IMG/VR virus record: IMGVR_UViG_3300011114_000867 | Span: 1-39,621 of that record | DNA length: 39,621 nt | Direction: 5' to 3' (one strand) | DNA from: a virus | Part shown: in pieces, positions 11,174-18,762 of the stretch | Numbering within the stretch: position 1 is the first letter of the stretch | How the letters are laid out: every line of letters begins with the position of its first letter | The notes under the pieces: generated by a model | Told to the model about the DNA's origin: nothing | What the model saw: only the letters and a program-made list of their open reading frames with translations | The model's database searches: none | Program-made: the position numbers and the translations under genes

Positions 11174-11227
11174 TAGAACGCACGAACTCGACCACAGGGG
11201 TCGAGCGCGTCGTAGGTCACTCGTCGT

Positions 11228-11332
11228 TCACGGAAGTTGTCCGGCAATGATCATGGCAATTAGCCAGGCGATGATGAGGAGAATCGCACACGCCATGAGA
11301 CCGTCCATGTTTTCCGGCTCTTGCCTGTTCAT
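11228..11332 (-). CDS. 34-aa single-pass membrane micro-protein
   Basis: This short ORF begins MNRQEPENMDGLMACAILL and is then hydrophobic to its end (IIAWLIAMIIAGQLP). The start is set by a good Shine-Dalgarno, AAGGAGG four bases before ATG. This differs from genes outside the island. It is the most distal gene of the island's minus-strand run. Function unknown. Confidence 0.55.
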   Translation of the reverse strand: MNRQEPENMDGLMACAILLIIAWLIAMIIAGQLP

Positions 11333-11351
11333 GTTGCCTCCTTGTGGGGTT

Positions 11352-11612
11352 TTACCGGTCACAGTTCATGATGCGTCGTCGCAGCTGGTCGATGTCCTTG
11401 TACGTCCAGGACGTGTCCGCTCGCATGAGATTGTCGATGAAGGAGTGAACCTCCTCGATGGTCATGTTAACGAACAGCTTGTGCCACGTTGCGTGCCACT
11501 CCACCGGGAGCCACACGAGGTTGTTGCGCCCACCACCTCCACGGCTCGAAGGCCGGATGTGGTGTGGGTTCATTCCTTCGGCGTGATGCTTCTGCCTACG
11601 GCGTCTGCTCAT
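11352..11612 (-). CDS. HNH endonuclease, small
   Basis: An 86-residue protein beginning MSRRRRQKHHAEG. The start is chosen because GGAGG lies five bases upstream; longer in-frame extensions have no such site. The HNH core reads MNPHHIRPSSRGGGGRNNLVWLPVEWHATWHKLF split over residues 15-48, with the His-His, Asn and His-x-x-x-His positions of the beta-beta-alpha-metal fold. No zinc-knuckle cysteines are present. It could be a homing or packaging-associated nuclease of a foreign phage. Confidence 0.75.
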   Translation of the reverse strand: MSRRRRQKHHAEGMNPHHIRPSSRGGGGRNNLVWLPVEWHATWHKLFVNMTIEEVHSFIDNLMRADTSWTYKDIDQLRRRIMNCDR

Positions 11613-11781
11613 TGCTTCCTCCAAGCTGTGAGATTTTTCCTTCGAACTTGTGAACCGCGTCCGGCTTCTCGATGCTGTGCCATATCTCGGCAAGGCCAGC
11701 GTCCTTGTCTTTTGAGGGACTGGGGAGCGTTCCCTGCCAAGCACAGCGAAAGCACACTGCATGCACACGTCGCTTGCTCAC
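11596..11781 (-). CDS. 61-aa protein with CxxC motif, GTG start
   Basis: The GTG start overlaps the stop of the upstream gene (GTGA), with AGAAGG just before it, and the 3' end overlaps the HNH gene by 17 bases. The product begins VSKRRVHAVCFRCAWQG. A single CxxC pair suggests part of a zinc site. The tight coupling supports it as a real island gene. Function unknown. Confidence 0.55.
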   Translation of the reverse strand: MSKRRVHAVCFRCAWQGTLPSPSKDKDAGLAEIWHSIEKPDAVHKFEGKISQLGGSNEQTP

Positions 11782-11975
11782 GCCTTCTTCTCGGCGAAGT
11801 TCGCGGTAGCGATGCGGTTGCACTTGTGGATGAGCATGCACACCATCACATGGCTGTACACACGCATGAGGCGCTCAACGCCTTCGGGGATCATCGGCTC
11901 GTCAACGTAGAGCGTTACCGTCTCCGACGTGCTTGGGTCAACTTCTCCCCGGAGAACACAACTGATTACGAACAT
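11778..11975 (-). CDS. 65-aa hypothetical protein
   Basis: It starts at ATG 11973-11975 with GAGAGG five bases upstream, encodes a protein starting MFVISCVLRGEVDPSTSET and ends at TGA inside the next gene's GTG. It contains two Cys and a helical HVMVCMLIHKCNRI segment. No family was recognised. It belongs to the compact island operon with four-base overlaps. Confidence 0.6.
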   Translation of the reverse strand: MFVISCVLRGEVDPSTSETVTLYVDEPMIPEGVERLMRVYSHVMVCMLIHKCNRIATANFAEKKA

Positions 11976-12070
11976 GTGAACCTCTCTTTGAGTTTCATCC
12001 TGATGAAAAGGAAGATCGCTACTAGCAGGATGCACCAGCAGACGACCCTGTGGAACCAATGAACCTTCAC
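11966..12070 (-). CDS. 34-aa membrane micro-protein, GTG start
   Basis: The ORF opens at GTG overlapping the TGA of the zinc-ribbon gene, so it is probably translated by coupling, and overlaps the next gene by ten bases. The sequence is basic, then a hydrophobic helix (VVCWCILLVAIFLFI), then basic again, so it looks like a single-pass membrane peptide. No strong Shine-Dalgarno is visible. Confidence 0.4.
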   Translation of the reverse strand: MKVHWFHRVVCWCILLVAIFLFIRMKLKERFTCS

Positions 12071-12285
12071 TTGCGCTTGCCGTAGCCGACGACCGGTAGC
12101 CCCCACTTTGCCGCCTCGTTGAACGTGGTCGAGTTGATGGGGTGGTACGCCTTGATCGTGAGCTTGTCTGCACACCGCGGACATGCCGTTAGGTAGACCA
12201 GCCGCCCGTCCGTGGTGAGAAGAACGAGATTGACGATGCACGCCGTCTTGCAGTCCGGACACTCAAGTCCAATACGATTAGCCAT
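12067..12285 (-). CDS. 72-aa zinc-ribbon protein
   Basis: It begins MANRIGLECPDCKTACIV and carries a second pair ACPRCADK about 25 residues later, giving two CxxC knuckles of a zinc ribbon. It has a strong GGGGAGGT six bases before ATG, which fixes the start. The C-terminus is basic (GYGKRK). A possible nucleic-acid-binding regulator of the island; no specific family recognised. Confidence 0.65.
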   Translation of the reverse strand: MANRIGLECPDCKTACIVNLVLLTTDGRLVYLTACPRCADKLTIKAYHPINSTTFNEAAKWGLPVVGYGKRK

Positions 12286-12380
12286 TGCACACCTCCCCGG
12301 CAATATTCCTCTGATAAATACTCTCGGGGTGGTGATGGATTTACTTTGAGGCGAAATCCACCGAAAGACCTTCCTCGCGT

Positions 12381-13424
12381 TTATCGATCGTGATCCAGGA
12401 TGATCGGCGCTACGACCGTTTTCCCGAACTTCGAGTCGATGAGGAAGAACGCCTGCACTGGGGGCTCTGGAGAAGCCTTGATGGCGAGAGCGTACGCGTT
12501 GTAGCCGATGAGCGACCCGTTCACGATGAAGCTCCCTCCATCGAAGAACTGGTGAAAGTGTCCCAGCACGTCGAGATCTGCACGATGTCCACGGTTCCAC
12601 CCGTAGATTGCTTTGTTGAGGGGAACCGTGAGGCCACCCACACCGCCGCCGTACTTCACTGCATGACCGTGATGAAACCTGATCGTGGTGTTGTAGACCT
12701 GGAGGTAGCTGTGGTAGCCCTCCGAGATGATGAACGTAACGCGCTTCTCGTTGGCGAACCGCTGAGCGATGGATGAGTACATCATCCTCTCAAGGCTGTT
12801 GCCGGCCTCGGTAGAGATGTGAACCTGTCGTGTCGTTCGTCCGTGGTTCCCACTGTGACATGGGATCACGAGCTTGAGGTCGCTGTTGTCGAGGATGTAC
12901 TGGATGCCTGCGGCGAGGTACTCCTGGACTTCCATGATGGCGTAGATCGGGAGCAAGCGATTGCCCTCAACCAACTCCTCGTGGATAGAACCGGAGATGA
13001 AGTCGCCGATCATCGCGAGCACCAGCGTGTCGATGTGTACCGCGTGGCGTTCCTTCTCCACGAGCTTGAGCCCATGGCGGAAGAACCGGCGCACACGTTC
13101 CGCACAGATCGCCTTGTCGAACACGTTCATGTCGTTGACCTGCGTTGACAGCACGACTTCCTCGATGTGCCAGTCGCTCGCGACCATGACGGCGGTGGCC
13201 TGGGATTCGATCCCCTGCACAGCCTTGATCGAAAACGACTTGCGCGAGTTCTTGATGCGCGTCATCGCCAATAGCTCACCTTCGAGAGACTTCATGCGGT
13301 CGATGAGATCGCTGTTGAGTTTCTTCTCGCGGTTCAACGCTTCGATGCGCCGCTCTGAAATCACGCGGTCGCGGATGGCCTTGCTTGCCCGAAGGCTAGA
13401 AGGCTTCGTTTCTTTCTTTGCCAT
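12381..13424 (-). CDS. Calcineurin-like metallophosphoesterase
   Basis: A 347-residue protein. The first about 60 residues are a charged coiled-coil-like helix. The catalytic domain shows SDWH (Asp84, His86), IGDF (Asp141), GNHGR (192-196), HHGH (251-254) and GHFH (288-291), the two-metal ligand set of metallophosphatases, including MRE11/SbcD-type nucleases and phosphodiesterases. The start is fixed by TAGGAGG five bases before ATG; upstream in-frame codons lie in structured leader. It is the first gene of the island operon. The substrate cannot be told: DNA end, RNA or nucleotide are all possible. Confidence 0.85.
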   Translation of the reverse strand: MAKKETKPSSLRASKAIRDRVISERRIEALNREKKLNSDLIDRMKSLEGELLAMTRIKNSRKSFSIKAVQGIESQATAVMVASDWHIEEVVLSTQVNDMNVFDKAICAERVRRFFRHGLKLVEKERHAVHIDTLVLAMIGDFISGSIHEELVEGNRLLPIYAIMEVQEYLAAGIQYILDNSDLKLVIPCHSGNHGRTTRQVHISTEAGNSLERMMYSSIAQRFANEKRVTFIISEGYHSYLQVYNTTIRFHHGHAVKYGGGVGGLTVPLNKAIYGWNRGHRADLDVLGHFHQFFDGGSFIVNGSLIGYNAYALAIKASPEPPVQAFFLIDSKFGKTVVAPIILDHDR

Positions 13425-13550
13425 GAAACCTCCTACGGAGCGAGATTGCTCCTGTAGGCACTCATGGGTCGAAGCATGAGTACCAGCAGGAGCACAGCGT
13501 AGGATTAAACGCTGCCCCCATCCCACTTCTCACATCCACTATACCATTAT
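13425..13550 (-). promoter_or_regulatory. Island promoter and structured 5' leader with SD hairpin
   Basis: The minus strand carries TGGTATAGT near 13540-13549. The leader then holds three inverted repeats: CAGCGT/ACGCTG, CTCATG/CATGAG, and CCTAC-GGAGC/GCTCC-GTAGG at 13432-13458. The last hairpin includes the GTAGG part of the Shine-Dalgarno GTAGGAGG (13429-13436), so it can mask ribosome access to the metallophosphoesterase start. Confidence 0.6.
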
Positions 13551-13990: not shown

Positions 13991-14677
13991 TCAGTTCTTA
14001 TTCGTTAGGTTATTTTTGTTTACAAAGCGTCCATTTTCGTCCTGTACTAACAAACTTTTTCCGTCTTCTCTATAGTTGAAAATAGCCGGTGTCTTAACGA
14101 TCTTTCCCGACTTGAATAATTCTTTTAGTCCACGCTCAGTTTCTATCTTCGAAAGCAATTCCTTATATTCACCTTTGTGGAACTTTTCGTGACACTCATA
14201 GCACAAAAAAATGAGATTCTTTGGATGGTGCAGGAACTCGTTATGCGGTTGTTGGCTTACGTAATATATGTGGTGGGTATTATATATCTTGCTATCACTT
14301 CTTTTACAGATTTCACAAAACTGGTATCCGTTCTCTTCCACAAATACTTTTCTGAACTGGCGACATGCAAAATTGTGTCTACGAAAAGATAGAGAATATT
14401 GTCTTTTCTTCTTTATCCCACCTTTCCAGTTAGGATTATTTTCTTTTCTCTTTGCGTTAGATTTAGCAATGTTTGCACATTCATCACAGAATTTTCGCTT
14501 TACAGCGTTCTTTCTTTGTACTTGAAATCTTTTCTCGCACATCTTACAGGTTTTATCTTTGTATGAGTCTAGCCATACCTTATGTAGTGCGAGTCCACAT
14601 TCATATGAACAAGTTTTATAAGTGCCGGCTTTCCCAATTCTTTGAAACTCCTTTGAACAAACTTTACATCTCTGCAT
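13991..14677 (-). CDS. HNH endonuclease with zinc-finger N-terminus
   Basis: A 228-residue protein. It begins MQRCKVCSKEFQRIG and has three zinc-knuckle pairs (CKVC..CSYEC, CKMC..CDEC, CEIC..CYEC). A WKGGI element at about 98 is common in homing endonucleases. The HNH core reads YNTHHIYYV, then HHPKNLIFLCYECHEKFH. The ATG at 14677 is chosen because a promoter with an overlapping palindrome lies directly upstream. The gene is AT-richer than its neighbours, which suggests a free-standing homing nuclease. Confidence 0.8.
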   Translation of the reverse strand: MQRCKVCSKEFQRIGKAGTYKTCSYECGLALHKVWLDSYKDKTCKMCEKRFQVQRKNAVKRKFCDECANIAKSNAKRKENNPNWKGGIKKKRQYSLSFRRHNFACRQFRKVFVEENGYQFCEICKRSDSKIYNTHHIYYVSQQPHNEFLHHPKNLIFLCYECHEKFHKGEYKELLSKIETERGLKELFKSGKIVKTPAIFNYREDGKSLLVQDENGRFVNKNNLTNKN

Positions 14678-18637: not shown

Positions 18638-18647
18638 GTGGTATAGT
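18638..18647 (+). promoter_or_regulatory. Extended -10 promoter for structured RNA
   Basis: CGTGGTATAGT, with TATAGT at 18642-18647 preceded by TGG, fits the phage's GTGNTATAAT form. Transcription would begin near 18654, directly ahead of the 13-bp closing stem of the candidate RNA. Confidence 0.5.
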
Positions 18648-18653
18648 ATGTAG

Positions 18654-18757
18654 GCAAAACACAGGCAGAACACTAAGTGCGTTGAGTGAATGGATGGGCG
18701 TAAGCCCTGGCTCCTGTGGCCATGCAGTCCGTTCGTTCCTCGCACTTAGTGTTTTTT
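18654..18757 (+). ncRNA. Candidate structured small RNA with built-in terminator (about 104 nt)
   Basis: AACACTAAGTGCG (18669-18681) pairs perfectly with CGCACTTAGTGTT (18741-18753), and six T follow. Inside, GAATGGA (18688-18694) pairs with TCCGTTC (18728-18734), and this encloses GGGC-GTAA-GCCC (18696-18707, a GNRA tetraloop) and TGGC/GCCA (18708-18722). The layout is a closed stem, an inner stem and a three-way junction, typical of a stable functional RNA. No ORF fits the segment. A plain terminator would not need the ordered 59-base interior. No known class was recognised. Confidence 0.6.
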
Positions 18758-18762
18758 CCTTT

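Follow-up and report, generated by a model that had tools for sequence, protein, structure and literature searches.

The window, by which we mean the whole stretch of DNA analysed (an entire 39,621-base record of a virus in IMG/VR), carries a short run of minus-strand genes whose translation starts and base composition differ from those of the surrounding genome. Does this island belong to the phage in which it is found, was it brought in from elsewhere, or was it created during assembly? The first-pass annotation had proposed either a cassette taken from a phage of a host that uses Shine-Dalgarno (SD) starts or a chimeric assembly join, and these two explanations, taken together, proved largely wrong. 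We instead favor, with moderate confidence, a reading in which the island is an accessory cassette resident in a broad range of tailed phages, with a metallophosphoesterase (MPE) gene as its marker, and acts as an autonomous, SD-led, host-like expression unit. A literature search limited to open-licence papers found none on SD islands in phages among about 70 titles.

Start signals and base composition of the island

Seven open reading frames on the minus strand are packed into positions 11228-13424. The base at -1 is C or A at all seven starts, two of which are GTG (11966-12070 and 11596-11781), in agreement with the first-pass annotation, which had described seven minus-strand genes with two GTG starts and with ATG starts preceded by C or A but never by T. 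It had also reported several clear SD sites, and computed anti-SD pairing is indeed strong at five of the seven starts (-9.6, -12.3, -8.4, -9.3 and -10.8 kcal/mol); pairing is weak at both GTG starts (-1.7 and -3.0 kcal/mol) and averages -2.3 kcal/mol over random island positions. The start positions of the small island genes are predicted ones. Strict SD-plus-start motifs occur four times on the minus strand of the island against 1.06 expected from shuffles (p = 0.02), a modest excess within the island alone; the stronger evidence is the comparison of the island with the backbone and with relatives. None of 35 backbone genes has an SD when genes are called by a codon model blind to SD, and T stands at -1 in 73-79% of backbone genes (77% with the codon-model caller). 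This T-ATG rule is also present in several other phages, both related and unrelated, and 7 of 41 genes in the window start one base past a stop codon, as stop-T-ATG.

The island is equally distinct in composition. Its GC content is 0.563, compared with 0.478 and 0.458 in the flanks, and a three-segment change-point fit places sharp borders at 11180 and 13540, which we take as the limits of the whole island. No 60-base line outside it holds 38 or more G or C, and the two sampled lines cited earlier were counted correctly (38 of 60 at 13021-13080 and 20 of 60 at 14341-14400). GC at third codon positions (GC3) ranges from 0.63 to 0.78, offset for all seven genes from a backbone mean of 0.47 (sd 0.06, 25 backbone genes). 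The different start grammar and composition noted earlier are real.

Border sequences and non-coding features

At the upstream border lies a candidate extended -10 promoter, TGGTATAGT (13538-13546, minus strand), proposed from its resemblance to the consensus; a two-hexamer promoter scan did not recover it. Between this site and the first SD, the minus strand carries a leader hairpin (13447-13494), an inverted repeat with 20-nt arms at 85%, and the leader as a whole is strongly folded (-51 kcal/mol, z -4.2). Strongly folded leaders also precede some other islands, by values obtained without a control. The downstream border holds a short inverted repeat read from the sequence, CTCGACC...GGTCGAG (11187-11205), which has no T run; no U-tailed terminator is seen there.

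A second copy of TGGTATAGT lies near position 18639. Downstream of it, in a 530-nt divergent gap, about 110 nt of non-coding plus strand (18653-18762) folds into a long, T-tailed hairpin (-51 kcal/mol, z -6.0) that is likely a small RNA or a terminator. An Rfam search returned no match, for this feature or otherwise.

The MPE and its neighboring genes

The longest gene in the island (12381-13424, minus strand, SD TAGGAGG) encodes a calcineurin-like MPE that matches the phrog_284 exonuclease profile with an E value of 7.6e-38; in Pfam it had no match. All of the metal-binding motifs of the family (DxH, GD, GNH, H and GHxH) are present, and D84, H86, G140-D141, G192-N193-H194, H252, G288-H289 and H291 are invariant in 23 MPE homologues. 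The predicted model has a pLDDT of 85, and its fold neighbors are PolD DP1, LpxH and Mre11. Profile, motifs and predicted fold together identify a calcineurin-like phosphoesterase whose active site is intact, and the protein may be a nuclease.

The six remaining genes, all on the minus strand, are short. Following the MPE are a 72-aa, zinc-ribbon-like protein with two CxxC pairs (12067-12285, SD GGGGAGGT), whose family matches all fall below cut-off; a 34-aa peptide with a single membrane span (11966-12070), whose GTG start overlaps the previous stop and lacks an SD; a 65-aa protein of no family (11778-11975, SD GAGAGGT); and a 61-aa protein with one CxxC (11596-11781), whose GTG start again overlaps the previous stop and has a weak SD. 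The last two encode an 86-aa HNH-nuclease-like protein with the motif HHIRPSSRGG (11352-11612, SD GGAGG), which matches phrog_655 weakly (E 0.00095) and nothing in Pfam or NCBIfam, and a second 34-aa single-span membrane peptide (11228-11332, SD AAGGAGG). Searches of the island proteins against Pfam, PADLOC, NCBIfam and PDB sequences gave no match over the cut-offs.

Recurrence of the block in other phages

Relatives of the MPE, at about 50% protein identity and with the SD still kept, are found in many other IMG/VR phages. We assembled a panel of 17 phages that carry an MPE and mostly lack SD at their other genes, together with two SD-using phages as controls; the panel was partly picked by MPE similarity, and many of its records are fragments. 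Across the 17 low-SD phages, SD starts cluster within 2 kb of the MPE compared with elsewhere in the same genomes (Mantel-Haenszel odds ratio 6.5, z 7.4). This clustering persists when the window and G047, a near-duplicate, are left out (odds ratio 5.5, p ~4e-11) and in the seven phages that were not picked for SD at the MPE (odds ratio 4.1, p 1e-4), and the two SD-using controls show no excess of SD near the MPE. A circular-shift test gave p 0.016, rising to 0.055 once the window and G047 are left out; this test is too blunt because chance SD-like open reading frames within genes add noise, and we therefore wrote an objective gene caller for the SD comparison. Four phages (G046, G069, G070 and G071) show little or no SD clustering at the MPE, and in G066, one of the 17, SD is fairly common elsewhere (9 of 29).

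The compositional offset recurs as well. MPE GC3 exceeds the backbone mean in all 17 low-SD phages and is the highest of any gene in 11 of them; over all 19 genomes it follows backbone GC3 (r 0.93) with a mean offset of +0.135, and the small island genes are shifted in the same direction. In G053, a phage with a GC content of 0.31, five consecutive island genes have an SD (-7.3 to -9.9), while the genes immediately flanking the island on the same strand have none. Because that island is AT-rich and its co-directional neighbors are SD-less, its SDs are not a by-product of GC content.

The block is usually found next to the lysis cassette: it adjoins endolysin or holin genes in the window and in G001, G028, G046, G052, G053, G057, G061, G065, G068 and G070. 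The adjoining lysis enzymes vary (amidase, M23, M15/VanY), and other neighboring lysis genes are papain-like or holin-like, as assigned by eye. The cargo is less constant. A small HNH-like protein is shared by 4 of the 17 low-SD MPE phages, relatives of the window's own copy sit in the islands of G047, G052 and G053, and none was found in named phages. Small proteins rich in Cys and small membrane proteins reappear as types, not as homologues, and cargo other than the MPE and sometimes the HNH-like protein is poorly conserved across islands. In three phages, small proteins with HExxH-like motifs (HECLH, HEFLH) adjoin the MPE (L290:10307-10615, L274:12793-13098 and L312:9488-9745), and from this motif we consider them a possible metallopeptidase partner.

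The recurrence bears directly on assembly. The sharp GC borders would fit a chimeric join of two phages, but SD-led MPE blocks on SD-poor backbones are repeated in independent contigs, and one of these, G028 (IMGVR 3300049924), carries relatives of the window's terminase (60%), portal (25%) and MPE (50%) on a single contig. There the MPE block comes after an M15/VanY-type peptidase and a holin-like gene, the genes around the MPE are SD-led on both strands, and GC is 0.45-0.50 at the block compared with 0.35-0.40 in most of its surroundings. Because independent contigs would not reproduce one and the same join, we exclude a chimera as an extremely improbable origin. Relatives of the block with the same odd rules adjoin lysis genes in many viruses that are unrelated, and the island is therefore a real, long-lived module. 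Just past the SD island of G028 (L087 14340-15800), about 1.4 kb is sparse in likely genes and holds several hairpins that have T runs.

Host and origin of the island

The window encodes a terminase, a portal, an SU10-type capsid protein, tail genes, an Amidase_2 endolysin, an Erf-type annealing protein and HNH proteins. By eye, its first open reading frame seems cut at base 1 and its last ATG lies about 17 bases before the end; the record may therefore be a circular or permuted genome opened within one gene. The first 20 kb has no close DNA relative among named phages, and the portal, used as a query in viral contigs, returned no relatives. The nearest terminases are those of Flavobacterium phages among named phages (46%) and, among genomes, that of a contig assigned by binning to Bacteroidales (57%); terminase relatives occur in 15 of 395 Bacteroidota genomes, only one of them above 40% identity.

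These terminase affinities bring to mind a regulatory switch, in which host ribosomes keep their anti-SD hidden, like those of Bacteroidia, and translation of the island occurs only when this block is relieved, for example on ribosomes lacking bS21. A bS21-type switch is known from Flavobacterium, and rpsU is a documented case of an SD-led gene in SD-less Bacteroidia, with reported anti-SD pairing below -13 kcal/mol (PMC9976891). Attractive as it is, this alternative is weakly supported and, in our judgment, unlikely. The MPE was found in none of the 395 Bacteroidota genomes; the MPEs of Bacteroides and Phocaeicola phages are distant in the tree and lack SD; the Bacteroidota promoter motif is enriched in a Phocaeicola phage but not in the window; and a bS21 gene is present in none of the 17 phages. 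Pairing in the island (-8 to -12) is also weaker than that of rpsU, the strongest start in the window reaching -12.3 kcal/mol.

A cassette imported repeatedly and recently from phages or plasmids that share its host and use SD, with its SDs and GC as leftovers of the donor, would account for the foreign-looking composition, the sharp borders and the variable cargo, and the MPE is indeed also found in many SD-using, GC-rich phages. In the MPE tree, however, these GC-rich phages group apart within a supported clade of 34, in which the window joins, weakly (82/74), seven other MPEs from SD-poor phages, and most of the closest relatives of its MPE belong to low-SD phages. A long stay in SD-poor phages accounts for this tree better than one recent import does. 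GC3 follows each genome, although donors of host-like composition, if import were repeated, would yield this correlation too; SD is retained even in the AT-rich G053 island; and a repeat search of the window found no convincing mobile-element border repeats, nor was an integrase found there. Repeated import is thus conceivable but doubtful. Of the earlier proposal of a cassette from a phage of an SD-using host, the foreign look stands, but the block is no one-off, since it recurs in phages that mostly lack SD and its GC3 tracks each genome.

Expression of the cassette and comparison with known systems

The computed recurrence of the block, the clustering of SD starts at the MPE, the GC3 offset and the position beside lysis genes are the observations on which we favor a resident accessory cassette. 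Such a cassette would form its own expression unit, with the promoter-like site at its upstream border and the strongly folded leader followed by short overlapping genes, mostly SD-led and with GC3 above that of the rest of the genome. It could be read by the ordinary anti-SD-dependent initiation of the host, helped by host-like codon usage, while the backbone would instead depend on SD-less T-ATG starts; both the host and the timing of the cassette we infer. Its nucleases and small zinc and membrane proteins might in this way be made independently of the main programme of the phage. The role of the cassette is probably nucleic-acid processing, and its proteins could serve host takeover, DNA processing or counter-defence. 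A broader and tentative idea, which we would not call probable, is that many phages run two start grammars, an SD-less main one and a lysis-proximal module kept on SD by selection as a separate translational channel, for early, dormant or stress-phase expression or for specialised ribosomes.

Both kinds of start occur in one small genome, and the contrast between them repeats in unrelated phages, which makes the island a natural test of ribosomal start choice in SD-poor systems. It also points to a widespread accessory locus close to lysis genes and marked by a nuclease, in which takeover or counter-defence genes may be sought. Finally, it cautions against treating every island of deviant starts and GC in a phage contig as an assembly error.

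Several known systems resemble parts of the island. Its MPE shares the calcineurin-like phosphoesterase fold with the archaeal PolD DP1 exonuclease, Mre11/SbcD and LpxH, but identity to these is only 10-14% with a TM-score of about 0.5 or lower, and, unlike in the PolD DP1 and Mre11 systems, no DP2 or Rad50 partner is seen. Phage MPE exonucleases of phrog_284, including those of cyanophage KBS-S-2A and Bacteroides phages, belong to the same family and keep the catalytic motifs; in the Bacteroides phages examined, however, the MPE lies among replication genes and has no SD, unlike in the window. As with rpsU and further SD-led genes of SD-less Bacteroidia (PMC9976891), strong SDs stand on chosen genes of a genome in which they are otherwise absent, but the island is a multigene phage block with weaker pairing and no ribosomal protein. 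It also resembles phage morons and accessory cassettes in being a block between modules, distinct in composition from the backbone, with a promoter-like site and a variable cargo of small genes; unlike morons, it recurs at one place, beside lysis genes, in unrelated phages, with a shared marker gene and a different start grammar.
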